Shown here: positions 9,402-20,309 of the stretch, one piece after another
Numbering within the stretch: the first letter of the stretch is position 1
Layout of the letters: each line of letters begins with the position of its first letter
NCBI GenBank assembly: GCA_025964985.1
Contig: JAOPXU010000087.1
Coordinates: forward strand, 1-35,792
Source of the DNA: Nocardioides sp.
Lineage (GTDB): Bacteria; Actinomycetota; Actinomycetes; Propionibacteriales; Nocardioidaceae
Direction of reading: 5' to 3'
Length of the DNA stretch: 35,792 bases
Program-made: the position numbers and the translations under genes
Notes under the pieces: model-generated
Database searches by the model: none
What the model saw: only the letters and a program-made list of their open reading frames with translations
Told to the model about the DNA's origin: nothing

Positions 9402-9575
9402 TCAGCCGTGGTGCGGAGGGACCTGCGACTTCAGCCACTCGTCACCGGCGTCGGCGCGGGACTCCGAGCCGGGGTCGCGCTCGTCGGAGGTCGTGTCGGG
9501 CAGGACGTCGCCGAAGACCGCCTCGAGCCGGCGCTTGCGCTCCGCCGGCGTCTCGGCCGGCTTCTCGTCACTCAC
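9402..9575 (-). CDS. 57-aa conserved small protein after LCP gene
   Basis: Begins at the GTG at 9575, overlapping the stop of the LCP gene (GTGA), so it is coupled to it. It is charged and soluble: ETPAERKRRLEAVFGDVLPD, then an acidic linker, then the end WLKSQVPPHHG. The pattern RLExVFGDVLPxTTxDER plus an aromatic/PPHH tail is one I recall from many short actinobacterial hypothetical proteins. Function is unknown. The overlap and motif together make this a real gene despite its length. Confidence 0.75.
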   Translation of the reverse strand: MSDEKPAETPAERKRRLEAVFGDVLPDTTSDERDPGSESRADAGDEWLKSQVPPHHG

Positions 9576-10798
9576 GCGCACAGCCCGGCGGACTCGCGCT
9601 CCTCGGCGGTGGCCGCACCCTTGACCGGCTTGTCCCCGGAGCTGGAGCCGGCCGGATCGTCGCCGTCGACGGAGTCGGCGGCGGTGATGACGCCGGAGGA
9701 GACCTTGGCGCTCAGCGGCTTGTCGAGCGCGACCTTGCGCCACAGCTTCTCGGCCTCGGGGAGCCACTCGACGCGGTTGGGGTCCTCGGGCGAGTACTGC
9801 CACGGCACGGTGACGAAGCGGATGTTGTCGAGCCCGATGCTGCGGAACGACGACCCGACGTCCTTCATCCCCCCCACCGAGTCGAAGTCGGTCTGCAGCG
9901 AGCGGGTGGCGGCGTCGAGGAAGCCGAGCAGCCGGTCGACGCGGGTGAGCATGCCGCGCGAGACGACCTTGCCGGCCATGGCGGCGAGGAACGCCTGCTG
10001 GCGCTTGATCCGGCCGAGGTCGGAGCCGTCGCCGAGCGTGTAGCGCGCGCGGACGTAGTTGAGGGCTTCCTTGCCGGCGATCTCGCGGGTGCCGGCCGGG
10101 ATGTCGATGCCGTGCGCGGGGTCGTGGATCTCCTCGGGGATGCAGACCTCGACGCCACCGATGGCGTCGACCATGTCCTGGAACCCGTTGAAGTCGACCT
10201 TGACGTAGTTGTCGAGGCGGATGCCGGTGAGCTGCTCGAACTGCTGCATCGTGCAGGCGGGACCGCCGACCTCGAAGGCCTCGTTCCACAGCACGTCGTC
10301 GGCGCCCGGGATGGTCGTGCCGTCCTCGGCGATGCACTCGGGTCGGTCGACGAGGGTGTCGCGCGGGACGCTGATGCCGTAGGCGAAGGTCCGGTCGGCC
10401 GAGAGGTGGAACATGATCGTGGTGTCGGACCGCTCGCCGTCGCCGGTGAGCCCGTCGATGTTGTTGCCGGCGCCCTCACGGCTGTCGGAGCCCATGACGA
10501 GGATGTTGAGCGGCTCCTGCGGCCCGGTCGCCATGTCGACCTTGTCGGGCCGGTCGGTGAGCTGCTCGGAGTAGTCCTGGTAGTCGACGTTGTCGTCGAG
10601 GTGGCGCAGGAAGTAGACCGACCCGAGCCCGATGACCAGGGCGAGCGCGACCGACGCGGCGAGGACGACGACCAGCAGCTGGTGCCGCCTCTTGCTGCGA
10701 CCTCGGCGCTTGGGCCGCGCGCCGACCCGGCCCTGAGGGCGGTCGTCGCTGGAGATCGCGTCGGACGTCGGAGCGTGCAGGTCGGGCTCGTCGGGCAT
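9572..10798 (-). CDS. LytR-CpsA-Psr (LCP) family cell-wall ligase
   Basis: About 408 aa. A basic cytoplasmic N-terminus (RPKRRGRSKRRH) precedes one membrane helix at about residues 40-64, then the extracytoplasmic LCP domain: LNILVMGSDSRE, RSDTTIMFHLSADR, GISVPRDTLVDRP, YVKVDFNGFQDMVDAIGGVEVCIPE, and the catalytic-site segment LNYVRARYTLGDGSDLGRIKRQQ. LCP enzymes attach polyprenyl-linked glycopolymers such as teichoic acids or arabinogalactan to peptidoglycan. The ATG at 10798 has AAGG 5 nt upstream; the in-frame GTG at 10804 is an alternative. The Ser/Asp-rich tail is likely disordered. Cotranscribed with the 57-aa gene. Confidence 0.93.
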   Translation of the reverse strand: MPDEPDLHAPTSDAISSDDRPQGRVGARPKRRGRSKRRHQLLVVVLAASVALALVIGLGSVYFLRHLDDNVDYQDYSEQLTDRPDKVDMATGPQEPLNILVMGSDSREGAGNNIDGLTGDGERSDTTIMFHLSADRTFAYGISVPRDTLVDRPECIAEDGTTIPGADDVLWNEAFEVGGPACTMQQFEQLTGIRLDNYVKVDFNGFQDMVDAIGGVEVCIPEEIHDPAHGIDIPAGTREIAGKEALNYVRARYTLGDGSDLGRIKRQQAFLAAMAGKVVSRGMLTRVDRLLGFLDAATRSLQTDFDSVGGMKDVGSSFRSIGLDNIRFVTVPWQYSPEDPNRVEWLPEAEKLWRKVALDKPLSAKVSSGVITAADSVDGDDPAGSSSGDKPVKGAATAEERESAGLCA

Positions 10799-10905
10799 GG
10801 TCACCTTGGAGTAGTCGGACGGGCCTCCATTGTCGGCTGCTCACCCGAAGGGACCAAACCGGCAACGGTCCCCTTCCTGGCTCGAGGACCGCCTCCGCGA
10901 CCCGG

Positions 10906-10911
10906 TAACCT
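10906..10911 (+). promoter_or_regulatory. -10-like hexamer in front of the left repeat
   Basis: TAACCT lies 9 nt before GCCCCAGTAG (10921-10930), the same ten bases that begin the tRNA-Arg gene at 18355. This is the right distance for a tRNA promoter -10 element. No convincing -35 is seen. It may be the original tRNA promoter stranded by the island. Confidence 0.3.
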
Positions 10912-10918
10912 CGGCCTG

Positions 10919-10930
10919 CCGCCCCAGTAG
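10919..10930 (+). repeat. Left 12-bp direct repeat, putative attL core
   Basis: CCGCCCCAGTAG, identical to 18353-18364, where it covers the 5' end of tRNA-Arg. The match stops sharply on both sides. Genes to the left (LCP) have chromosomal codon usage and those to the right differ, so it coincides with the apparent island boundary. Confidence 0.55.
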
Positions 10931-11024
10931 ACCGTGTTGATAACTCGGGGCCCCGCCTGGAACGGCTCCCCAAGTTCTGGCATTGAACAGAATCAGGGCC
11001 GTCTTGGAACAACCGGGCCCCTGT

Positions 11025-11043
11025 CCGCCCCATCTTGGGGCGG
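11025..11043. terminator. 7-bp GC hairpin in the left end of the island
   Basis: CCGCCCC (11025-11031), loop ATCTT, GGGGCGG (11037-11043). It may end transcription entering from the left. The rest of the gene-free stretch 10799-11235 holds the putative attL, the palindrome CGGGGCCCCG near 10947-10956 and presumably the promoter of the next gene; no further gene is seen. Confidence 0.4.
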
Positions 11044-11235
11044 CGCGGGTTCTGCGTGGGTCGGCAGACTGATGCGGTTTTCTTTCGTGTGCCCGTAACC
11101 CTGTTGGGGGTCGGCGGCGATATCCCTGGTGAACCCCCGGTGTCTGGCACTGCCATCAGTGTCACCCCATGGCGTCGGGGGTCAGTCTCCGTACCGGCTT
11201 GGTCGGCACGTCTTGTTCCTGGGAGGGAACCCGTG

Positions 11236-12252
11236 ATGAAGAACTTGATGAGGGCCGTAGCGGTCTTCGCTGCACTGTGTCTGCTGTTGGTGGGTGGACC
11301 GGCTGTGTCTGCTGGCAAGACTCCTGACCGGGTTGGTGATGTTCGTGCCGGTGCGATGAAGGTCCGTATCGACGGCGCGAACGGTGTTGACCGGTACCGG
11401 GCTTTCACGAAGAAGACGAAGGTGTTCCTGGTCGACCGGGCAGGCAACCGCACTCGTGCGGACTTGAACGAACTGGGTCGTGGCGCGAAGGTCGTCGGCA
11501 AGCGTGTCGTTGACGGCAAGATCGTGTCGATTGCGTTGGCCGAGAAGGGCCCGACGGATTCGTCTGACTGCTCCTTCGACAGCAGCGACGACGACGGTGA
11601 CGCTGTCACCGACGACGACTCGTTCGAGTGCTCCAACGACTACGACGACGGCACTGTCGACACTGACTCCGACTGCTCCTACGACTCCTCATCTGATGGT
11701 CCCGCTTCGGACCACTCCCTCGACATGTCGTGGGACTGCTCCTACTCCGAGACCGATGACCGTGACGAAGACGAAGGCGGTCTCGACTGGGACTGCTCGT
11801 TCAGTGCTTCGGCTGACACCTCATCCGACGCCGACGGCAGCGACACCTCTGCCGACCTCGACTTCGACTGCTCCTGGAACGGGGCCAGCACCGACAGCGC
11901 CCTGTGGAACTGCCGGTTCATCCCCGGTTCGCTGGGGTTCGAGTGCAACTCCGCACAACTCCAGCAGACGTTCGGCTACACCATCGACACCGATGACCTT
12001 GCCCTCGACGGTGGCCTGGACTTCCAGACCGACATCGTCGACGAGAACACCGGCGATGACGGTGTCGGCTGCTCCGGGACTGCTGCTGACGGTTACGACT
12101 GCTCGGTAGACGGCGAAGCCGGTACCGGTGACTGCACCGTTGACTGGGACTTCGACCGCTCCGGTGCGACTCGCGAAGGTGACGTGTCGGGCAGCCTGTC
12201 GTACTCCTGCTCCACCGAGGGCTCTGGGTCCACCAACCCCGACGACCTCTGA
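11236..12252 (+). CDS. Secreted Asp/Ser-rich protein with [DE]-C-S repeats
   Basis: A 338-aa protein from the ATG at 11236 (the in-frame GTG at 11233 is possible; GGGAGGG lies upstream of both). Residues 1-26 are a signal peptide ending AVSA. Residues 28-105 look like a small beta-rich domain (KVFLVDRAGNRTRADLNEL ... VVGKRVVDGKIVSIALAE), resembling DUF5666-type folds. Residues 108-338 are extremely rich in Asp, Ser and Gly and carry 12 cysteines at fairly even spacing, nine directly after Asp or Glu (DCSF, ECSN, DCSY, DCSW, DCTV). No Lys occurs in this region and Arg is rare. Metal or calcium binding, or a disulfide-ladder surface fibre, is possible; I recognise no family. It lies just upstream of the sigma/anti-sigma pair. 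Confidence 0.8.
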   Translation: MKNLMRAVAVFAALCLLLVGGPAVSAGKTPDRVGDVRAGAMKVRIDGANGVDRYRAFTKKTKVFLVDRAGNRTRADLNELGRGAKVVGKRVVDGKIVSIALAEKGPTDSSDCSFDSSDDDGDAVTDDDSFECSNDYDDGTVDTDSDCSYDSSSDGPASDHSLDMSWDCSYSETDDRDEDEGGLDWDCSFSASADTSSDADGSDTSADLDFDCSWNGASTDSALWNCRFIPGSLGFECNSAQLQQTFGYTIDTDDLALDGGLDFQTDIVDENTGDDGVGCSGTAADGYDCSVDGEAGTGDCTVDWDFDRSGATREGDVSGSLSYSCSTEGSGSTNPDDL

Positions 12253-12280
12253 GTCTCTAGGCACGACGGTTTCCTCTCAT

Positions 12281-12314
12281 GGTGGCCCCAGCCCTCTCGG
12301 GGGCCGGGGCCACC
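12281..12314. terminator. Strong hairpin after the Cys-repeat gene
   Basis: GGTGGCCCC (12281-12289) pairs with GGGGCCACC (12306-12314), with further inner GCCC/GGGG pairing. It lies 29 nt past the stop. It is followed at once by the perfect palindrome GTGACGTCAC (12315-12324), which could be an operator. Confidence 0.65.
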
Positions 12315-12414
12315 GTGACGTCACGGAGACTGGCCTGTGCCGGGACGGGCGGGTGGTCGGGGCAGTTCCTGCAAAACCGTCAAGGTCAGAGGCCGAAGGT
12401 CCGATGATTGAAGA

Positions 12415-12999
12415 GTGGAACCCTGGGACTTCGCCGAGACGCTGCGCGCTGCGCAGCGCGGTGACCAGCAGGGTTATGCCGGTCTATGGCGCACGTTCTC
12501 TCCTCGTATCGCTGGGTTCCTCCGTGGGCGCGGGGTCGTCGACATCGACGCGGTGACCAGCCACGTCTTCTGTGACGCGTTCGGGTCGTTGGACACGTTC
12601 ACCGGCAACGAGAACGCCTTCGCTGCGTTCTTGTTCACCATCGCTCGACGCCGTGCCGTGGACGTACACCGTCGCCGTGCCCGTCAACCGCAGGAAACGC
12701 TCACCTGGGACACCGAGCACGGCGACCGCACTGACCGGACCGAACTGAGTGCTGAGGACACGGTGATGCTCGCTGAGGACCACCGGTGGGCCCTCAGCGT
12801 CCTCGCCACCTTGTCGGAGGACCAGCGTGAAGTGTTGCTGCTTCGCATCGTGGGCGACCTGACGGTCGAGGCGGTCGCGAACGAACTGGGCAAGACCCCT
12901 GGTGCTGTGAAGGCGTTGCAGCGGCGAGGACTGGACACGTTGCGACGCACCGCGCTCGCAGAGCAAGCAGACAACGAAGGCGGGAAGGAGGCACCATGA
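12415..12999 (+). CDS. ECF-like RNA polymerase sigma factor
   Basis: A 194-aa protein with the sigma-70 two-domain layout. Region 2 is about residues 12-90 (YAGLWRTFSPRIAGFLRGRG ... AFAAFLFTIARRRAVDVHRR) and region 4 about 125-180 (LATLSEDQREVLLLRIVGDL, then VEAVANELGKTPGAVKALQRRGLDTLRR, the -35-binding helix-turn-helix). The start is the GTG at 12415 (VEPWDF...); its Shine-Dalgarno is weak. Its stop overlaps the ATG of the next gene (ATGA), the classic arrangement for an ECF sigma and its anti-sigma. Region 2 is diverged, so the ECF subgroup is uncertain. Likely targets include its own island genes; that is inference. Confidence 0.88.
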   Translation: MEPWDFAETLRAAQRGDQQGYAGLWRTFSPRIAGFLRGRGVVDIDAVTSHVFCDAFGSLDTFTGNENAFAAFLFTIARRRAVDVHRRRARQPQETLTWDTEHGDRTDRTELSAEDTVMLAEDHRWALSVLATLSEDQREVLLLRIVGDLTVEAVANELGKTPGAVKALQRRGLDTLRRTALAEQADNEGGKEAP

Positions 13000-14027
13000 C
13001 ACCGACGACACCGACGCCCCCACCGTCCGACAGCAACAGCGACGACGGTTTCGACCCCGCTCGCGACGACGAATCGGACACCATCGTCGAGTTCGCCTTC
13101 GCCGGTTCCGCCGAGCGTCTGGTGCCTGCCCACCTGGCAGCCGATGTCGAAGTGCTGCGTCGTCTGCGGACATCCCTCACGAGCCCGGCCCCGGTCCCAG
13201 TTGGTGACCTTGCGGCCTACCTCACTCCCTCCGCCACCTCTGCCGGAACCGCCACTACCGGGGTTGCACCGGCGATTGCATCAGCCACTGCTCCTGCTGA
13301 CCGTTCACGCAAGGTGGTGCGCGGCCCGGCTGCCTGGTTCGTTGGTCTCGGGCTGGCCGCACAGGTCGGTCTCGGGTCCGCTGCTGCGGCGGCGGGCATC
13401 GTGGCTGCCGGTGCCGCAGACGTGCTGCCAGGGCCCATCCAGAACGCGTTCGATGCCGTAGTCGAGGTAGTCCGCCCAGAGCCACCGGACGACAAGCGCA
13501 ACGTCGATGACCCCGAGTCAGACGACTCGCTTCCTGACGTCGTTGGCGTCCCCACTGACACAAAGAGCACCGCCTACAACAGCGACCCCAGTGACGGTCC
13601 GCGTGAGAACAGAACACGGCCAAGGGACCGGGATGCGCAAGGCCCGCAGACCGGTCAGGAAACCTCCGGCGAAAGCGGCGCTGGCTACGTGGATGAGGAC
13701 CCCGTCGGTGGGTCTGGCAGTACAGAGCCTGTCGTAGTCGTTCCCCAAGAACCGAATGTGGATGACGGCCCCCAAAAGGACCCAGACGGCTCAGACGGCG
13801 AGGACGGCTCAGACGGCTCAGACGGCGCGGACACCTCAGATGACGAAGCCGACGAAGCCGACGAACCTGAAGACACCCCCGATAGCGCCGATGAAGAAGC
13901 CGACGCAGCAGAGGACGCAGCAGAGGACGCACTTGACGCCATCGAGGACGAGACGGAAGTAGAAGACCGCTCCGGCGATGCAGGCGACGACGAGGACGAA
14001 GAGGACGAACCAGAGTCCGACGACTGA
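12996..14027 (+). CDS. Single-pass membrane protein with acidic tail, probable anti-sigma factor
   Basis: A 343-aa protein. AAGGAGG precedes the ATG, which overlaps the sigma-factor stop. Residues 1-108 are a soluble N-terminal part with a short helical segment (HLAADVEVLRRLRTSL); about 111-142 is a Gly/Ala-rich membrane helix (PAAWFVGLGLAAQVGLGSAA...); from about 160 to the end it is Asp/Glu/Pro/Ser-rich, ending DDEDEEDEPESDD. Position and topology fit an anti-sigma factor that holds the sigma at the membrane with a long exported or disordered tail. No ZAS-type HxxxCxxC motif is present, so it would be an unusual one. The acidic tail parallels that of the secreted protein upstream. Confidence 0.72.
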   Translation: MTPTTPTPPPSDSNSDDGFDPARDDESDTIVEFAFAGSAERLVPAHLAADVEVLRRLRTSLTSPAPVPVGDLAAYLTPSATSAGTATTGVAPAIASATAPADRSRKVVRGPAAWFVGLGLAAQVGLGSAAAAAGIVAAGAADVLPGPIQNAFDAVVEVVRPEPPDDKRNVDDPESDDSLPDVVGVPTDTKSTAYNSDPSDGPRENRTRPRDRDAQGPQTGQETSGESGAGYVDEDPVGGSGSTEPVVVVPQEPNVDDGPQKDPDGSDGEDGSDGSDGADTSDDEADEADEPEDTPDSADEEADAAEDAAEDALDAIEDETEVEDRSGDAGDDEDEEDEPESDD

Positions 14028-14092
14028 GCGACACCCGTTGTACCCGACAGGCGCTCCGCCGCAGTCTCATACATGAAGTCAACTCATAGAGT

Positions 14093-14524
14093 GTGGGTGT
14101 GGCATCCCAACCCCGCGACTGGTGCATCCCTCGGGAGTCCTTCGGGCGACTGAATGTAGAGAAGCGGGTTTGGTTGCCGCCGGACCCGCACGGTGAGCCG
14201 TTGGCGGTGTCGAAGTTCCGTGCGGCGGTGATGCAGAACCTCATCGTGCTGTCAGTGCGAGGGTTCAAGAACCTCAAGGGCGTCGCTCAGGAGGAGTTGG
14301 CCCGCCTGGACCTGCGGTCGGATTCGATGAACATGTGGAATGCCCGTCTGTGCGGGCGAGCGAACCTGACGACCCAGGACATCGTGACGCTCATGATGGT
14401 GTTGCCAGGAGCGATGCCAGGCGAGGAAGCCATCCAGAGGTTCGTCGAGGTCGCCGAGGGCACCGTGGCACCCCCGAAGTTCTGGGACTTCCCGGACAGC
14501 AGCGCCCGTCGCCCCACCTTGTGA
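14093..14524 (+). CDS. Small HTH-like protein of the island
   Basis: A 143-aa protein from the GTG at 14093 (GTG at 14099 is an alternative; neither has a clear Shine-Dalgarno, so a leaderless message is possible). The middle section (AVMQNLIVLSVRGFKNLKGV, then AQEELARLDLRSDSMNMWNA, then LTTQDIVTLMMVLPGAMP) has the length and hydrophobic spacing of an XRE-type helix-turn-helix domain in which QEELARLDL would be helices 2-3. It could be a regulator of the recombinase operon. The match is by eye and weak. A strong terminator follows. Confidence 0.6.
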   Translation: MGVASQPRDWCIPRESFGRLNVEKRVWLPPDPHGEPLAVSKFRAAVMQNLIVLSVRGFKNLKGVAQEELARLDLRSDSMNMWNARLCGRANLTTQDIVTLMMVLPGAMPGEEAIQRFVEVAEGTVAPPKFWDFPDSSARRPTL

Positions 14525-14610
14525 CGGGAGTCGACACCCGACCCCTCCCCCTTCGCTTGGTCGAAAGATGCGACAAGCGCAAGCCGTAACGGCTCTGGTT
14601 GAAGCCTGCA

Positions 14611-14629
14611 CCCCGCGAGTTTTGCGGGG
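14611..14629 (+). terminator. First of two tandem hairpins
   Basis: CCCCGC (14611-14616) and GCGGGG (14624-14629) around GAGTTTT. It directly precedes the stronger hairpin at 14638. The two together may form a double terminator or part of a small RNA. Confidence 0.45.
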
Positions 14630-14637
14630 GTAATTGC

Positions 14638-14666
14638 GCCCCCGTCCGACCGGACGGGGGCCTTTT
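14638..14666 (+). terminator. Rho-independent terminator
   Basis: GCCCCCGTCC (14638-14647), loop GACC, GGACGGGGGC (14652-14661), then CTTTTC. A perfect 10-bp stem with a U-run, the most canonical terminator in the window. It isolates the HTH gene from the SOS-box operon. Confidence 0.85.
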
Positions 14667-14811
14667 CGACGGTTATCTGGATCGTCGCTAGACCCCAGAT
14701 TGGGCACATGCCCACCGCCGCCGCTCTCCTGCTCCTCCTCCTCGCCTTCACGGCAACGAGCCTCCGCAACGTCGCCATCGTGCCCGCTGTCATCTCCGCC
14801 GCTCAGGCAGT

Positions 14812-14827
14812 TCGAACGTTTGTTCGA
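14812..14827. promoter_or_regulatory. Perfect SOS box (LexA operator)
   Basis: TCGAAC-GTTT-GTTCGA (14812-14827) matches the actinobacterial/Gram-positive LexA consensus CGAAC-N4-GTTCG with complete dyad symmetry. It lies 32 nt upstream of a short ORF start (14860), within the gene-free stretch between the terminator at 14666 and the recombinase operon. DNA-damage induction of the downstream genes is the expected consequence. Confidence 0.75.
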
Positions 14828-14859
14828 CACGCAACCGAGATCGGTGGTAGGACGGTCGC

Positions 14860-14940
14860 ATGCGTTACCGCGACTGGCTGTGCAGAACGTGTGCCGGAGT
14901 CCCCGGCACACCGCCGCACCCAGTCGTGTCTGTGCCCTAA
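14860..14940 (+). CDS. 26-codon leader ORF
   Basis: ATG at 14860 with AGGA 8 nt upstream; it ends with TAA at 14938-14940. The peptide begins MRYRDWLCRTCAG and is then Pro-rich. It ends 8 nt before the 5' arm of a hairpin that hides the next gene's Shine-Dalgarno, so a ribosome finishing here would cover that arm. This fits a regulatory leader peptide. The two cysteines and the prolines are the only distinctive codons. Expression is unproven. Confidence 0.45.
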   Translation: MRYRDWLCRTCAGVPGTPPHPVVSVP

Positions 14941-14948
14941 CACGAGGC

Positions 14949-14978
14949 GCTCCTGGGCTGCGGTTGTCACCCAGGAGC
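14949..14978 (+). promoter_or_regulatory. Shine-Dalgarno-sequestering hairpin
   Basis: GCTCCTGGG (14949-14957) pairs perfectly with CCCAGGAGC (14970-14978) around a 12-nt loop. AGGAG (14973-14977), the only good ribosome site for the ATG at 14986, lies inside the 3' arm. Translation of the next gene should be low unless the stem is opened, for example by ribosomes on the leader ORF. Confidence 0.6.
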
Positions 14979-14985
14979 ACTACCC

Positions 14986-15168
14986 ATGCCAAAGCACCCA
15001 CAGGCGAGCCTTCTGCGGCTCGTCGACCCTGACGAACTGGTCGAGCCTGACCCGTTCGCCATGCCCGTCCCACGCCCCAGCCCCAACGGCCCGGTCCTGC
15101 GTGTTGTCCCACGCCGCCACCCCGGTCCTGGGCCTGGTCGTGCCGCGCCGGGTGAGAAGCCGTCATGA
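14986..15168 (+). CDS. 60-aa Pro-rich small protein
   Basis: ATG at 14986, 8 nt after AGGAG. It starts MPKHPQASLLRLVDPDELVE and continues Pro/Arg-rich (VPRPSPNGPVLRVVPRRH), ending PGEKPS. No domain or membrane helix. Codon third positions are G/C-rich, as expected of a gene. It lies between the SOS box and the recombinase-like gene, 148 nt upstream of the latter, so it may be a control or accessory factor such as an excisionase; that is speculation. Its ribosome site is within a hairpin. Confidence 0.5.
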   Translation: MPKHPQASLLRLVDPDELVEPDPFAMPVPRPSPNGPVLRVVPRRHPGPGPGRAAPGEKPS

Positions 15169-15253
15169 ACGGACGTAGCCACAGAGGCCCGCTGCCCTAG
15201 CAGCCCGCCTCCGCTCCCCTTCATCCACTTCTCAGAGCAGACCGCTCTACCGA

Positions 15254-15272
15254 CCGCCTCCATTTGAGGCGG
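15254..15272 (+). terminator. 7-bp hairpin upstream of recombinase-like gene
   Basis: CCGCCTC (15254-15260), loop CATTT, GAGGCGG (15266-15272). It lies 45 nt before the ATG at 15317. It may attenuate read-through from the small gene or bind protein; no U-tract. Confidence 0.4.
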
Positions 15273-15316
15273 ATGCGACACGAGGTCTACTCGCTCACCC
15301 CGAAAGCAACCCAGCC

Positions 15317-16462
15317 ATGTCCACCACATCTGCACCCACGCCTGCCCTCACCACGGCTTCCGAGCCATCCAGCCAGTTCGTTCGTCGTTCCTCCAACCGT
15401 CGACGTGTGGGACTCCCCGGCCCCTACGACGCCTTCACCCTCGCCCCCGGTGTCGCCGCCTCGGGAGCCATCGCCGTGGCTGACGCACTGGCTCTTGTGC
15501 TTGCCGCGTGGCGCGCCGACAGCGTTCCGGTGGGCTTTACTGACGCCACCCTGCGTCGCTACGAGCACAACCTGGTCCGGTTCGCTGCCTACGTCACCGC
15601 GATGGGTTTTCCGATGCTCGCCGACCTCGACGCCGGTGTGTGTGCTGACTGGGTACACGCCCGCCCCACCGGAAAGATGTGGGCCTCCAACACCACCGGC
15701 CAGCCCGCCTACGGCACCCAAGCCAACCGCCGCACCTCGCTCATCAACTTCTTCGCCACCTGCCACCAACTCGGCCTGTGGGACGAGAACCCCGCCGAGA
15801 AGGTCACCACCCACGGACGGTCCAACACCCGCACCCGTCCCCTCACCGAGGCCGAGGCCGCACGCCTCATGGACCGCGCCGCCTACCAGGCCCGCGAGAA
15901 CAAGATGCCCGCCACCGTCGCCCTCGCCCTCGCCGGTGCGACCGTCACCGAAATCGCGCAGGTCGAGCCCATCGACGTGTACCTGGCCGAGCAGGTCGTC
16001 TGGCTTCCCGGCCTGGGTCGCCGCAACCTCGCCCGATGGGTGCCGCTCGACGAATGGCAGGCCGACGCCCTGGCCTCCCGGATCAACTATCTGACCCGCC
16101 GAAACGGCTCCAGCATCACCGGATTCTCCCTCGTCCACCGTGGCCGGGTCGCCGACCAGGACCCCACCAAGTTCGCCATGACGACCAACCAGATGCTCGT
16201 GCGTGCCCTCGCTAAGGCCGGTCTCGGTGTTGACCAGGGTGTCCGCCCGTCATCCATTCACGAGTACGTCGCCAACCGGGTCTACACCGAGACCGGCTCC
16301 ATGGAAGCCGTCGCCGTCCGCTGTGGCCTGCGTTCCATCGACGCCGCCGCCCGACTCGTCACCGTCAACTGGCGCACAACCCACGAAACGCCCGCACCAG
16401 CGGGCGCATGCGAGTCCGACCGGTACGCCGCCCAGAGTCAGGTCGAGGCGGACGCGCGATGA
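15317..16462 (+). CDS. Tyrosine-recombinase-fold protein lacking catalytic residues
   Basis: A 381-aa protein with integrase architecture: a SAM-like core-binding domain at about 75-165 (LRRYEHNLVRFAAYVTAMGF ... SLINFFATCHQLGLWDENPA) and a catalytic-like domain at about 175-355 (LTEAEAARLMDRA, then LAGATVTEIAQVEPIDVYL, then WLPGLGRRNLARWVPLDEWQ). The active-site positions are altered: the GxRxxE box reads GATVTE (R to T209), HxxR reads HEYV (H315 kept, R lost), LGH reads CGLRS (H lost), and the tyrosine position is near W352. It is probably a DNA-binding partner rather than an active recombinase. Its stop overlaps the next start (ATGA), so the two are coupled. Start ATG 15317; weak Shine-Dalgarno. 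Confidence 0.78.
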   Translation: MSTTSAPTPALTTASEPSSQFVRRSSNRRRVGLPGPYDAFTLAPGVAASGAIAVADALALVLAAWRADSVPVGFTDATLRRYEHNLVRFAAYVTAMGFPMLADLDAGVCADWVHARPTGKMWASNTTGQPAYGTQANRRTSLINFFATCHQLGLWDENPAEKVTTHGRSNTRTRPLTEAEAARLMDRAAYQARENKMPATVALALAGATVTEIAQVEPIDVYLAEQVVWLPGLGRRNLARWVPLDEWQADALASRINYLTRRNGSSITGFSLVHRGRVADQDPTKFAMTTNQMLVRALAKAGLGVDQGVRPSSIHEYVANRVYTETGSMEAVAVRCGLRSIDAAARLVTVNWRTTHETPAPAGACESDRYAAQSQVEADAR

Positions 16463-18132
16463 GCACCGCGATCCGCCAGCAGGGCGACGCGGCCAACACC
16501 GTCAGCAAGGTCAGCAAGCCCGCGAAGCCGACCAACCGTCAGCGCCGTGTCGCACGACGCGAGCGCACCCGCGAGGTCACCGAGTTCCGCATCCGCCGCG
16601 CCGCCCGTGACATGGCGACCTCGATGAAGGAAACCACCGCTGAGAAGCGCGAGCGTCGCCTCACCGACCTCAACAAGTTGGTCGCCGCCGCAGCCGACCA
16701 CCACCTCTACCTCCGCGCCGCCGCACTGCCCGAAAAGGGAGACCGCACACCCGGTCGACCGACCATGTTCCCGAACTTCGTGATGCTGCTCTTCGGTCAG
16801 GCCATCAGCATCTTCGGGTCCGCCGCCAACACCTCCGTCTGGTTCTCCGACGACACCGTCTGGAACCTCGTGCGCGACACCATCCGCGACAACATCGACC
16901 CCAAGTTGGCAGCCGACCTGCCAGACACCGGCCCGATGCTGCACCAGTGGAACCACTTCCATCGCAAGTTCAAGAAGCGCGACTGGCACGCGCTGCTCCA
17001 CGATGCCCAGCGCGCTACCGCCGCGCAGCGCGCCCTCGACATGGGCATGTTTGACCCCGCCGAACGGTTCCGCATCACCGACCCCGACCGGCGTTTCGTG
17101 GTGACCTTCGACGGCAAGGTCTCCACCTCCCCGTCTAGGCACGCGCCCGGTACCGAGTGGGTCAACAAGGTCACCGGCGAGGTCAAGACCCGCAAGTTCG
17201 ACCCCAACTCGAAGTCTTGGCCCGAAGGTGGCACCGCGCCCGTCCCGCCCGGTGCTGACGCCGCGACCATCGCCAAGCACCACGCGAAGGCCGGGGCACG
17301 GTTCGAGTGGGGACCCAAGGGCACCTACGCCTACGCACGGTTGGCCTACTACGGCACCCGTCTCATCCTCGACGTCGAAACCATGAGCCCCGAGGACGGC
17401 GATGAAGCCGCCGCCATCGCTCGCATCACCGACGGCCTCCTCGACCGACTGCCCGGTATCCAGACCCTCGTCATGGACGGCGTCTATAAATCCGTTCACG
17501 TCGACCCCTACATGCGAAAGGGACTCTTGGTCATCAACAAGCCCACAAGCGGCCCGAAGAACTCCGCGAACTCCGTCAAAATCGGCGAACGCTGGGAGAA
17601 GTCCCACCACATCGAGACCGTCGAAGTGCCCCGTGGCACCGGCGTGTGCCGTCACCGCATCTACGGCATCGGCGGAGCCCCCTACGAGCAGAAGGTCGAC
17701 GCCGCAGGCACCCCCGAGTACGTGCTCCTCACCGGGCACACAATCCGGCGCAAGCGGTCGACCTACACCGACTGGTACCGCATCGTGAACATCGAATGCA
17801 CCCGCTGCGGCGGCAAGAAAGAACACGCCATCGCTCTCGGCAACCAGAAGGGCGACGGGTTCAAGCGCAGCGAGTACCTGCGCCAGGTCCCCATGACCGA
17901 CGAGCAGTTCAAACGCGCCTACGGGTTCCGCCCCGACGCCGAGTCCGGCAACAAGGACATCGAAGAAGCCTGGCACCTCAAGCGCATGCCCGCCTGGGGC
18001 TGGCACAACCAGGCCCTCCGCATGCTCCTGCACGCCGGACAGGTCAACGCTGAAGCCTGGGCCATTCACCTCTCACGCCTCGCCGACCACGACGTCCTTC
18101 CTCAGGATGACGGAGACCCACAGGTCGCCTAA
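16459..18132 (+). CDS. DDE transposase-like protein (557 aa)
   Basis: Coupled by ATGA to the recombinase-like gene, with GAGGCGG upstream. A basic N-terminus (NRQRRVARRERTREVTEFRI) leads to a segment GRPTMFPNFVMLLFGQAISI, typical of transposase DNA-binding regions. An RNase-H-like core follows, with candidate acids D218 (VVTFDGKVS), D340 (TLVMDGVYK) and E495 (PDAESGNKD, as in the R-N-x-E-x-x-N box). A C-terminal helix reads NQALRMLLHAGQVNAEAW. A CTRCGG pair at 447-450 may form part of a zinc site. It resembles long actinobacterial proteins usually left hypothetical. Strand cleavage is inferred from the motif, not shown. It has no IS-like flanking repeats, so it probably acts on the island ends. 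Confidence 0.72.
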   Translation: MSTAIRQQGDAANTVSKVSKPAKPTNRQRRVARRERTREVTEFRIRRAARDMATSMKETTAEKRERRLTDLNKLVAAAADHHLYLRAAALPEKGDRTPGRPTMFPNFVMLLFGQAISIFGSAANTSVWFSDDTVWNLVRDTIRDNIDPKLAADLPDTGPMLHQWNHFHRKFKKRDWHALLHDAQRATAAQRALDMGMFDPAERFRITDPDRRFVVTFDGKVSTSPSRHAPGTEWVNKVTGEVKTRKFDPNSKSWPEGGTAPVPPGADAATIAKHHAKAGARFEWGPKGTYAYARLAYYGTRLILDVETMSPEDGDEAAAIARITDGLLDRLPGIQTLVMDGVYKSVHVDPYMRKGLLVINKPTSGPKNSANSVKIGERWEKSHHIETVEVPRGTGVCRHRIYGIGGAPYEQKVDAAGTPEYVLLTGHTIRRKRSTYTDWYRIVNIECTRCGGKKEHAIALGNQKGDGFKRSEYLRQVPMTDEQFKRAYGFRPDAESGNKDIEEAWHLKRMPAWGWHNQALRMLLHAGQVNAEAWAIHLSRLADHDVLPQDDGDPQVA

Positions 18133-18175
18133 GCAGAGCGCGATTCCGCGCCAAATTGAACAAGACATCTGAGTA

Positions 18176-18199
18176 CCCCGCGCCCACTGGGCGGCGGGG
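18176..18199 (+). terminator. Hairpin after the transposase-like gene
   Basis: CCCCGC-GCCC (18176-18185), loop ACT, GGGC-G-GCGGGG (18189-18199), a 10-bp stem with one bulged G. The rest of 18133-18352 holds no gene; it contains the 9-mer GTAGACCGT at 18310-18318 that also occurs at the left end. Confidence 0.6.
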
Positions 18200-18352
18200 C
18201 ACTCGTGCTGCCCTCACCCCAAACACCGTCCCGCGACGGGCTCCCGTGCAGACCCAGCAACCAAGCGGAAGAGGCTGTCTCGCGGACCCGGACCCGGTCC
18301 TGACAAGATGTAGACCGTCATCGTGGGTTTTCAACATGAAAGTGCACATGGC

Positions 18353-18364
18353 CCGCCCCAGTAG
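18353..18364 (+). repeat. Right 12-bp direct repeat, putative attR core
   Basis: CCGCCCCAGTAG; its last ten bases are the first ten of the tRNA-Arg gene. Identical to 10919-10930. The island therefore would regenerate the tRNA 5' end. Confidence 0.55.
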
Positions 18365-18427
18365 CTCAGTGGATAGAGCAGCCGCCTCCTAAGCGAAAGG
18401 TCGCAAGTTCGACTCTTGCCTGGGGCA
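18355..18427 (+). tRNA. tRNA-Arg (anticodon CCT)
   Basis: A 73-nt cloverleaf. The acceptor stem GCCCCAG/CTGGGGC is perfect, the D stem is GCTC/GAGC, the T arm is GCAAG-TTCGACT-CTTGC, and the discriminator is A. The anticodon loop CTCCTAA puts CCT at 18388-18390, reading AGG. The anticodon stem GCCGC/GCGAA pairs only at its three loop-proximal positions; G27-A43 and C28-A42 are mismatched. CCA is not encoded. The mismatch may mark a mosaic made by integration or reduced function. Confidence 0.88.
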
Positions 18428-18669
18428 CCCGAAGTCGTGGTCGACCTGCAGCCATGCTGTAGCCATGTGGCCCAAGGGCTCGCCCTGAGCCGCGACTAGC
18501 GCCCGAATCGTGGCCCTGACCGTTCGCGAGCACACCGTCCCCCGCGTCGAGGGGTCCCACTGCAATCACGGAGGTGCTCGGTCCGCCCGATGGCCCGCGA
18601 GCTCGCCCGGCCAGGGTCCCTCCCGCCGCCTGCACTCGCTGCAGGTCAGCGGCGCCGGGCTCGGACAGG

Positions 18670-18987
18670 TCAGGCCGGCGGAACGGCCTCGGGCAGGTCG
18701 CCGGTTGTGAGCAAGTGAGCGATGACGGACTTCAACTCCTCCTGGCGGGCCACTGCGGTCGACGTGAGCATGGCGAACGCCTTGTTCTCGTCGATCCCGT
18801 ACCGCTCTCGAAGGACACCAATGCCCTGCCCCAAGCGGCTCGCAGTCTCGAGGGCCGCCCGCAGCGTTCTGATCTCCGCCAACTGGTCTGCGATCAGAGC
18901 GTCCTTGGAATCCACCTGCTTCACGGCCACGAGCGAGACGGTACGGCCCGTCGCTCCCCGACGCGAGGGTTTCGCTGAATTGCGCAT
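18670..18987 (-). CDS. Small ANTAR-like protein
   Basis: A 105-aa frame from the ATG at 18987 (GTG codons near 18924-18930 are alternatives; no strong Shine-Dalgarno). The C-terminal 60 residues (LRAALETASRLGQGIGVLRE, then RYGIDENKAFAMLTSTAVAR, then VIAHLLTTGDLPEA) follow the three-helix ANTAR pattern of RNA-binding antiterminators, with the alanine/phenylalanine core of helix 2. It has a coiled-coil start (DALIADQLAEIRTLR) but no receiver or GAF domain. The region is scar-like, so it may be a fragment of a longer regulator. 18428-18669 shows no gene. Confidence 0.55.
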   Translation of the reverse strand: MRNSAKPSRRGATGRTVSLVAVKQVDSKDALIADQLAEIRTLRAALETASRLGQGIGVLRERYGIDENKAFAMLTSTAVARQEELKSVIAHLLTTGDLPEAVPPA

Positions 18988-19051
18988 GCGCTCGGCTGAG
19001 CGAACTTGGCGCGGTCGGCCGCAGTAGAGCTGGCAATGCATCCACTCGCCT

Positions 19052-19918
19052 ATGCGCCACCTCGTGCGCCTCGGCGTCGACGGGCTGATCACCGACCACC
19101 CCGACCGCCTCCGCGCGGTGCTGCGCGAGGAGGGCCTGCGCCTCCCCAAGGTCGTCAAGCCACCGAAGCAGGCGCGCCCGCTCGAGCAGGCCCACGCCCA
19201 CAACGACTACGAGCACGACCACCCCCTCCTCGACGCGCTCGACCACGGCTTCACCAGCGTCGAGGCCGACGTGTGGCTGGTCGACGACGAGCTGCTGGTC
19301 GCCCACGACCTCGCCGACGTAGAACCCGGCCGCACCCTGGAGAGCCTCTACTTCTCCCCGCTCGAGGCCCTCACGACGATGAACGACGGTTCGGTCTACC
19401 CCGGCCGCGAGGCGCCCGTGCAGCTGCTCGTCGACGTGAAGTCGCAGGCGGCGGCGACGTGGCGGGCGATCGACCAGGCGCTGCGCAACCACCCGGGCCT
19501 GATGACGCGCTTCACCCCCAGCGCCACCGCGCCCGACGCCGTCACCGCCGTCATCAGCGGCAACCGCGACCTCGCAGCGATGACCGCCCAACCCGACCGC
19601 CGAGCCGGCTACGACGGCCGCCTACCCGACCTCGGCGGCCCGCTGCCGGCGTCGGTCGTGCCGCTGGTCAGCGACAACTGGACCAAGCACTTCACCTGGC
19701 TCGGCGTCGGCCCGATGCCGGAGGCCGAGCGCACGAAGCTGCAGCAGATCGTCGCCACCGCCCACGAGCGCGGCCAGCGGATCCGCTTCTGGGCCACCCC
19801 GGACGTCGCCGGCCCCGCCCGCACCGCGATCTGGAGCGAGCTCGTCGAGGCGGGCGTCGACCACGTCAACACCGACGACCTCCCCGGCCTGCAGCGCTTC
19901 CTGCGCCGCTACCGCTGA
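19052..19918 (+). pseudogene. 5'-truncated glycerophosphodiesterase fused to an AIM6/PI-PLC-like domain
   Basis: The 288-aa frame opens with MRHLVRLGVDGLITDHPDRL, which is the very end of a GDPD domain; the catalytic N-terminal barrel is missing and a TAG lies in frame at 19025. From about residue 45 a second domain begins: AHAHNDYEHDHPLLDALDHG, FTSVEADVWLVDDELLVAHD, LLVDVKSQ and FWATPDVAGPARTAIW, matching AIM6-like PLC-type phosphodiesterases, with its HxHND and E/D metal ligands present. The second domain alone could still be active if translated. The break near 19.03-19.05 kb marks the right edge of rearranged DNA. Listed as a pseudogene, but it may be called as an intact CDS. Confidence 0.65.
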
Positions 19919-19946
19919 CGGAGCAGACGAGCCGGGGGTCCGCGGC

Positions 19947-20309
19947 TCAGACGTCGACGGGCACCGTCGGCTGCAGCACCGCCTCGACCAGCGAGTCGCT
20001 CCGCAGGTGCGAGCCCGCGTGGTAGCCGGGGTCGCGGACCATGTCGGAGAAGCTGCGCCGGGTCGGGTAGCGCACCAGCAGCACGGCGTCCCAGGCCTGG
20101 CCGTCCTCGGCGACCAGGGCCGTGTCGCCGTGGCCGTAGTAGAGGACCTCCGCGCCGCGCGCCTCGGCGTGCGGCCGGAAGTGACGCGGGTAGTCCTCGT
20201 ACGCCGTGGCGCCGTCCTCGACGAAGCGCAGCAGGTTGAGCATCACGACCGGCTCGTCGGGTGCGTGCTCGAGGAAGGCCTTGAGGTCTCGTCCGGTGGG
20301 GTCGATCAC
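19947..20309 (-). CDS. DUF1330 family protein
   Basis: A 120-aa protein from the GTG at 20309 with AGGAG about 7 nt upstream. The sequence PVVMLNLLRFVEDG, then YPRHFRPHAEARGAEVLYYG, then AWDAVLLVRYPTRRSFSDMV follows the dimeric alpha/beta-barrel (ferredoxin-like) pattern of DUF1330/EthD-type proteins. Function is unknown; members are often small stress or monooxygenase-like enzymes. A much longer open frame upstream is a shadow of the opposite-strand PPTase gene. Divergent from that gene. Confidence 0.85.
   Translation of the reverse strand: MIDPTGRDLKAFLEHAPDEPVVMLNLLRFVEDGATAYEDYPRHFRPHAEARGAEVLYYGHGDTALVAEDGQAWDAVLLVRYPTRRSFSDMVRDPGYHAGSHLRSDSLVEAVLQPTVPVDV

Follow-up and report, generated by a model that had tools for sequence, protein, structure and literature searches.

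The window analysed here is a 35,792-nucleotide stretch of a Nocardioides sp. genome (contig JAOPXU010000087.1, assembly GCA_025964985.1), and near its center are two overlapping rightwards-transcribed genes, which we refer to as gene A and gene B. Gene A (15317–16462, plus strand) codes for a 381-aa protein with a predicted tyrosine-recombinase fold, apparently catalytically dead and proposed here as a target selector, and gene B (16459–18132, plus strand) codes for a 557-aa putative DDE transposase of the Tn5/IS4 type. The ATG of gene B at 16459 overlaps the stop codon of gene A as ATGA, and an intact tRNA-Arg(CCT) gene, the target gene, starts about 220 nt past gene B on the same strand (18355–18429, plus strand; predicted by ARAGORN). 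A 12-bp repeat, CCGCCCCAGTAG, is present at 10919–10930 and again at 18353–18364, and the intervening DNA is a 7.4-kb element with the gene pair at its right end. A first-pass annotation, made from the sequence alone, gave correct coordinates and reading frames for the two genes and their ATGA overlap, and proposed that a dead or diverged recombinase acts as partner of a DDE enzyme.

Co-occurrence of genes A and B

A degenerate scan of genome contigs, for which the whole-family alignment A1 was too divergent to serve, identified 36 B loci, and in 30 of these an A homologue is located directly upstream. The remaining six are a locus where the contig starts inside B (L050) and five that contain B fragments only (L055, L068, L074, L075 and L076). 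Searching from the A side gave 22 matches in 20 of 296 genomes of the class; B adjoins all eleven matches with E values of 6.8e-29 or better and none of the eleven weaker ones (1.5 kb examined on each side), and the four weaker proteins that were read have intact Xer-type motifs. Pairwise distances for A and B are correlated across 30 loci (Mantel r 0.94, with none of 2000 permutations as high). Using tblastn, B relatives were found on six plasmids, every one actinobacterial, and an A-like gene is directly upstream of B and overlaps it in all five plasmid regions opened; in pMyong1 the A-like gene is split into two annotated pieces. In a sample of the phylum, B is present at E 1e-8 or better in 20 of 396 genomes, including that of the window. 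By these comparisons A and B evidently form a real unit.

Three loci depart from the usual order. Locus L028 (8090–14471, genome G302) contains two diverging pairs back to back, the second with B preceding A and a gap between them; in L167 (4840–9894) two B genes flank a single A, with no tRNA gene in range; and in L171 (4827–7442) B precedes A. L167 and L171 possibly represent a distant branch with a different layout. A phage origin for the pair was considered and rejected, as B matched none of 50,697 phage records and two scans of viral contigs gave no confirmed relative.

Predicted folds and catalytic residues

Gene A matches the profiles phrog_1 (PHROGs, E 1.8e-8) and XerD (NCBIfam, E 6.2e-9), both matches stopping near residue 260. 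In Pfam searches that admitted E values of 0.1 or lower, the N-terminal SAM-like domain of integrases is matched by 21 of 25 A members (best 1.9e-6) and the integrase catalytic domain by four of the 25 (best 0.0035); neither is matched by the window's own A at this threshold. An AlphaFold2 model of A, built with 25 sequences, has a mean predicted local distance difference test (pLDDT) score of 81, residues 10–45 scoring below 50 and containing no Pfam domain. The model matches XerA, XerH, lambda Int, IntI, Cre, and Tn1549 Int over both domains, with Foldseek E values to 5.5e-11, and aligns with tyrosine recombinases at Z 15–20 in VIA-align (XerA: Z 19.8, root-mean-square deviation (rmsd) 14.8, 254 residues aligned; lambda Int: Z 16.1, rmsd 4.1, 261 residues aligned; XerH, lambda Int, IntI, and Tn1549 Int all at 15–17). 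A is thus predicted to have the core-binding and catalytic domain fold that characterizes the tyrosine recombinases.

The catalytic positions of A were assigned by profile alignment to XerA; the alignment ends before the tyrosine, whose position was placed ten residues past a conserved glycine, a spacing taken from Xer proteins. In this register Arg-I corresponds to T209, HxxR to S312 and H315, the second histidine to L338, and the tyrosine to about L347. Among 37 intact A homologues, picked by hand and mostly one per near-copy group, the expected residue is found at Arg-I in three, at the first histidine in one, at the arginine of HxxR in seven, and at the second histidine and the tyrosine in none, so that the R...HxxR...H/W...Y set is absent from the family. 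An active recombinase is rejected on the tyrosine position, and A appears to be a dead recombinase that has lost its catalytic residues family-wide. Five other residues (E212, S313, S340, D342, and W352) are each retained by at least 35 of the 37 homologues, which indicates that selection maintains the old catalytic domain for another role. W352, a tryptophan in 35 homologues, is five residues past the tyrosine position, and is a hallmark of the family rather than a former tyrosine position.

In gene B, D218 and D340 are present in all 30 intact homologues compared (also picked by hand, mostly one per near-copy group) and E495 is present in 29; the one homologue without it, L170, diverges beyond this point in its C-terminal part and looks broken. 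Two further residues of the Y-(2)-R-(3)-E-(6)-K signature are conserved (Y488 in 28 homologues and R491 in all 30), and the lysine position is occupied by D in 22, K in five, and E in three. The window's B has no significant match in Pfam, PHROGs, or NCBIfam (best E 0.11), none of 20 B members has a Pfam match, and a match to Pfam Gad1 (E 0.17) was taken as noise. The B model has a mean pLDDT of 75.6; D218 ends a strand at 214–218, D340 ends a strand at 336–340, E495 is in a helix at 490–505, and a beta-rich insertion (372–459) is located between D340 and E495. This arrangement of strands, insertion, and helix corresponds to the RNase-H layout of Tn5. In VIA-align the Tn5 transposase (1mm8) ranks first (Z 13.6, rmsd 4.5, 285 residues), ahead of further DDE transposases and of retroviral integrases (Z 8–10); Foldseek matches to PH-domain and other proteins (best E 0.047) were taken as noise. 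B thus has the DDE triad and, in its predicted structure, the Tn5-type fold of the IS4 family, and is very probably a transposase that moves the element by Tn5/IS4-type cut and paste.

These results agree in most respects with the first-pass annotation. Its integrase layout for A is borne out by the profiles and the Xer-like predicted fold, and the loss of catalytic residues across the homologues upholds its suggestion of a dead or diverged recombinase. Of the catalytic positions that it gave, T209 stands as Arg-I, whereas its register for HxxR, the second histidine, and the tyrosine (W352) does not; the catalytic set is absent either way. The D218, D340, and E495 that it listed in DDE order are correctly placed and conserved, and the structure prediction that it called for gives B a Tn5-like fold with the acids in RNase-H layout. 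It had named two outcomes as fatal, a different active site with conserved R and Y elsewhere, which is not seen among the 37 homologues, and homologues that never occur together, which the co-occurrence counts from both the B and the A side contradict.

Element ends, target duplications, and tRNA genes

Comparison of related loci places the A/B pair at the right end of mobile elements that range in length from 7 to 44 kb. The element on the mycobacterial plasmid pMK12478 is 44.1 kb long with ends 5'-GGGACCTGACGAAAA and 5'-GGGACGTCTTTGGATACCTGACTAAAACC, and the stretches compared in five other mycobacterial genomes are 99.98–100% identical to it; where the near-identical element is on a single contig, its end coordinates give lengths of 44.1 kb (G353) and 41.6 kb (G354). 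This 42–44-kb element, with sulfonate-use, redox, and mce-like genes, is present in pMK12478 (L077/L080), pMAC109a (L081–L082), L058–L061, and L072, and its near-identity across mycobacterial species and plasmids points to very recent spread. The tips are 5'-GGG in mycobacterial and Streptomyces elements, and one probable left end starts GGGAGC.

Both ends are available on one molecule or contig for nine elements, of which eight share at least 9 bp and the ninth shares 8 bp. In six of these the left end was recognized from its own sequence or from a break in homology, without use of the repeat, and five share 9 bp–pMK12478 (CGTCCCACC), L061 (ACTGGAGAC), L072 (CGCGGTGCC), L064 (CCGCCCTCG; element of 32.8 kb), and L076 (GCGCCCTCG; 12.7 kb)–and one, L063 (29.3 kb), shares 8 bp only. 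In the other three (the window, G312, and G269) the repeat itself served to locate the left end, so it is not independent evidence there; G312 shares the 12-bp repeat at both ends in the same arrangement as the window, and in G269 a Streptomyces element about 22.7 kb long carries the repeat CGCCTCCGT with matching GGGCCTTGCGT tips. Four further repeat pairs are on different contigs and are paired by the repeat alone: CCGCCCCCG (L059), GGTGGACAC (L060), GGTCAACGG (L067), and AGCCTTGAC (L066). In most Streptomyces loci the left end is beyond the 8 kb examined. The duplications differ between sites of one near-identical element, which speaks against integrase-type crossover and departs from the shared att core of an integrase-type tRNA island; the flanking duplications are evidently the product of DDE transposition rather than of integrase chemistry.

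A same-strand tRNA gene is found 60–260 nt downstream of B in 34 of 59 loci, as compared with 10 of 1417 control frames. The count covers B 3' ends followed by at least 300 nt, and the controls, taken from the same loci, are the remaining open frames with a length of at least 200 aa, defined stop-to-stop in any of six frames rather than as annotated genes; the count omits L035 (= L174), L059 (= L033, the B of L033 having been entered by hand), L069 (= L034), the fragment loci L038–L040, and L036, where less than 300 nt follow B, and some of the loci counted are near-copies (e.g. L062 and L073). The 34 tRNA genes are 28 Arg(CCT), three Lys(TTT), and one each of Gly(CCC), Phe(GAA), and Thr(GGT). 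Where the right end was set by eye or by motif (mycobacteria, Streptomyces, and the window), it is 0–2 nt from the tRNA gene, so that the duplication takes in the first tRNA bases and the tRNA remains whole.

Insertion at the 5' end would cut the tRNA gene off from its own promoter. In the window, an outward-facing promoter look-alike, CCTGACAAGATG (18299–18310, plus strand), resembles the sequence found upstream of tRNA-Arg in the genus, and the same 12 bases are upstream of tRNA-Arg in three of the seven other genus loci compared that lack an A/B pair (L106, L109, and L112), L109 being a possible remnant. In Streptomyces, ATCCG(C/G)TA..CT is present between B and the right end in 12 of 13 elements examined and, by eye, upstream of tRNA-Arg in four of nine other genomes, with a partial version in one more; at least one of these nine upstream regions looks element-derived. 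A sigma-70 consensus scan of 18130–18440 found neither promoter nor terminator. We infer that the look-alike stretches may act as promoters. The look-alike, the family-wide 9-bp duplications, and the preference for tRNA 5' ends go beyond what the first-pass annotation had noted.

The left copy of CCGCCCCAGTAG (10919–10930, plus strand) contains the window's target duplication (about 10919–10927), and the right copy (18353–18364, plus strand) comprises the last 2 nt before and the first 10 nt of the tRNA-Arg(CCT) gene. The left end of the element, TAGACCGTGTTGATAACT (10928–10945, plus strand), has a tip that is uncertain by about 3 nt, and the right end (18325–18352, plus strand), set by eye and with the right ends of G312 and G356, has one uncertain by about 2 nt, in both cases because the repeat exceeds 9 bp. 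The ACCGTGTTGATAAC directly past the repeat is the same at the left end in G312 (L122) and changed in G356 (L107), and a GTTTT stretch in the right end has, by eye, a spacing resembling that of the mycobacterial right end.

The left neighbor of the insertion site is a lytR_cpsA_psr-family gene (9572–10804, minus strand; Pfam PF03816, E 2.5e-43). A relative of this gene is upstream of tRNA-Arg(CCT) in all eight other genus loci examined, and also in G312; the gap between the two, by match coordinates, is about 0.1–1 kb in seven of the eight loci, about 2 kb in G356, and 7.5 kb in the window. The window's element (about 10928–18352) has evidently split a lytR/tRNA-Arg neighborhood, and the suggestion that the 12-bp repeats are its footprint is sustained, as an insertion duplication, by this site comparison, by G312, and by the family pattern. 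In a chance check, three of 1871 12-mers of 18130–20000 recur in 10805–11000, the repeat itself counted, so the 12-bp repeat alone is weaker evidence than its place and the family pattern. The G356 element (L107:8909–10809) is about 1.9 kb long, with like ends at the same tRNA gene, and no A or B is present in the 11.5-kb stretch searched; it is likely a non-autonomous derivative. Two of the seven short-gap loci, L108 and L109, may hold element remnants.

Four other rightwards-transcribed genes are located within the window's element. The first (11035–12252) codes for a 405-aa Asp- and Ser-rich cargo protein with no Pfam family and with repeated DCS-like stretches. The second (12415–12999) codes for an ECF-type sigma factor (Pfam Sigma70_r4, E 9.8e-11; Sigma70_r2, E 1.3e-6), and is overlapped by a third (12996–14027) whose 343-aa product has a hydrophobic stretch and is possibly the anti-sigma partner. 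The fourth (14093–14524), cargo or accessory, codes for a 143-aa protein with no Pfam family and no homologue among the family loci examined. No Pfam match to an AAA+ ATPase, TnsB, TnsC, TnsD, or TniQ was found in the six plus-strand genes of the element. An XRE-type regulator gene pointing away from A (L006:4461–4817, L003:2119–2442, and relatives) is kept in mycobacterial and many Streptomyces elements, and was not found in the window's element. Past the S. mirabilis copy (L003:9255–13326) there is a separate set of two tyrosine recombinases and a DUF6262 protein, whose layout we take to resemble that of Tn554.

Proposed target selection and comparison with known systems

We consider it probable that A and B form a two-gene module that mobilizes an actinobacterial transposon, in which B transposes and A selects the tRNA target. 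The sequence comparisons reveal defined ends, 9-bp duplications, and a B-proximal right end that is often at a tRNA 5' end; full-length B adjoins an A that has lost its active site family-wide, and B keeps its D, D, and E. B would excise and insert the element by Tn5/IS4-type cut and paste. A, an integrase stripped of its chemistry, would still bind DNA and read the tRNA gene, and so fix the distance and orientation of B in the way that TnsD or TnsF do for Tn7-like elements, and the right end would bring a replacement promoter from which the tRNA would still be transcribed. We have moderate confidence that A reads the tRNA gene and places B; its fold, its lost chemistry, its coupling to B, the fixed tRNA geometry, and the TnsF precedent support this role indirectly. 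The fuller proposition, that outside Tn7 a dead integrase without an ATPase steers a Tn5-type transposase to tRNA 5' ends, with the right end as replacement promoter, up to 44 kb inserted, and the tRNA kept, seems to us somewhat likelier true than false.

Several observations weigh against the two-gene module with A as selector. No tRNA gene is in range in 25 of the 59 loci, among them copies on plasmids, most of the mycobacterial copies, broken ones, and distant members, and one near-identical mycobacterial element occupies tRNA-Arg in a single genome and unrelated sites elsewhere, so targeting is not absolute. Mapped onto the A tree (without L028b and L171), target labels require 14 changes, compared with a shuffled mean of 16.9 and as low in 5 of 200 shuffles, and the four tRNA-Lys rows require four changes, which is not below the shuffled 3.9. 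The tree of A is only a weak guide to target type, and a selector role is neither refuted nor supported thereby. The candidate left ends for L065 and L057, on other contigs, mismatch the right flanks and are probably not partners, and no left end was found for L062, L073, the S. mirabilis plasmid, G281, G147, or G244. Foldseek alone gives no confident match for B in the Protein Data Bank (PDB).

Plasmids may provide some of the other sites. The right flank of L072 matches a plasmid (79% identity over 85% of 7.7 kb); for L058, only a cadmium-resistance region of about 0.6 kb matches plasmids among the matches listed, and the right flanks of L060 and L061 have no plasmid match. This gives no more than a hint of plasmids as a second class of target, in the manner of Tn7-like elements.

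A possible but distinctly less likely explanation is that A regulates through DNA binding or serves as an architectural cofactor bound to the ends, with B or the whole transpososome picking the tRNA site; A would then resemble the repressors MrpR and SroF, or help to join the distant element ends. We know of no link between MrpR/YopR or SroF and a DDE transposase. The A model also matches the MrpR/YopR and SroF structures at Z 11–14, the weak tracking of target type by A's tree favors this explanation, and MrpR itself is described as having lost recombinase function and gained that of a repressor (PMC10516654). Many elements, however, already have a divergent XRE-type regulator (30–31 matching open frames in the loci examined, duplicate records counted). 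Translational coupling of A to B fits a transposase partner, and the fixed orientation at the 5' end of a gene is typical of a selector bound to its target gene.

It is improbable that A has kept catalytic activity through rearranged residues and resolves the cointegrates that B leaves behind, in the manner of TnpI, which has this role for Tn4430-type elements. The conservation of E212, S313, S340, D342, and W352 does reflect strong selection on the old catalytic domain, but A has no conserved tyrosine, the nearest candidate (V350 in the window) being Y in 14 of 37 homologues, and its arginines and histidines are mostly lost. Least credible is an ordinary genomic island that a tyrosine integrase has placed at a tRNA gene and in which B is an unrelated passenger; this would suit the tRNA location and the integrase-like gene at the island end but is rejected because the 9-bp duplications differ between sites of one near-identical element, with insertion at the tRNA 5' end, the absence of catalytic residues from A, and the adjoining of full-length B by A (the second B genes of L028 and L167 departing from the usual order) also against it.

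The A/B elements constitute a hitherto unrecognised bacterial transposon family, without a Pfam name and carrying large cargo that includes metal-transport genes, sulfonate-use genes, and a sigma factor. They offer an origin for islands 5' of tRNA-Arg(CCT), and two proteins with short ends could give a simple site-specific insertion tool for actinobacteria. In a literature search that covered few subscription papers and preprints, and in which most papers were judged by title and the start of the abstract, the combination of two genes, a Tn5-type transposase, no Tn7 parts found, tRNA 5' ends, and a promoter look-alike was not found, and only a study of Tn7-like elements came close.

Among the known systems that come close, the IS4 family (IS10/IS50, Tn5) compares with gene B. 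Its members have, at the catalytic Glu, the signature Y-(2)-R-(3)-E-(6)-K; their duplications measure about 10 bp (9 in IS10), and the tips of most subgroups begin with C (CAT, CA, CT, CW) (De Palmenaer et al. 2008, PMC2266710). B resembles it in Y488-x2-R491-x3-E495, the Tn5-like predicted fold, and the 9-bp duplication, as in IS10 (at least 9 bp in eight of nine elements, 8 bp in the ninth), but the signature is incomplete, its lysine being mostly lost (K in 5 of 30). The A/B elements also differ in having 5'-GGG rather than C-starting tips where the ends are exact (the window's tips are uncertain), a second gene, lengths of 7–44 kb rather than about 1.2–5.4 kb, a site preference, and no Pfam match. 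For gene A, a tyrosine-recombinase fold like that predicted here is reported in MrpR/YopR of SPbeta and SroF of phi3T (PDB 8a0a, 9rd5), which differ in being phage repressors (PMC10516654).

Insertion next to tRNA genes under protein guidance has a parallel in CAST I-D, with CAST I-B2 named alongside it (Faure et al. 2023, PMC10293859). CAST I-D uses TnsD and inserts about 30–33 nt past the tRNA end (PMC10293859), whereas the A/B elements insert at the tRNA 5' end over its first bases, with no Tns protein found in the window's element. Another close system is the Tn7-like Tn6022, whose TnsF is described in the same account as a catalytically inactive relative of tyrosine recombinases that selects the target; a dead tyrosine recombinase choosing the target of a DDE transposon is therefore already in print (PMC10293859). 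Both are DDE transposons with a dead-recombinase partner in an operon with transposition genes, A's selector role being the proposed part of the likeness. TnsF has N-terminal zinc fingers, uses TniQ and the Tn7 machinery, and targets comM (PMC10293859); A has no Pfam domain at residues 10–45 and is followed by B rather than TniQ. The A/B elements instead combine two genes, a Tn5/IS4-type transposase, and the tRNA 5' end, with AAA+ ATPase and TniQ unmatched in the six genes of the window's element. If the selector role of A is correct, they would be a second case of a dead integrase as target selector, with a simpler partner than Tn7, and would bear on the evolution of site choice in DDE transposons.

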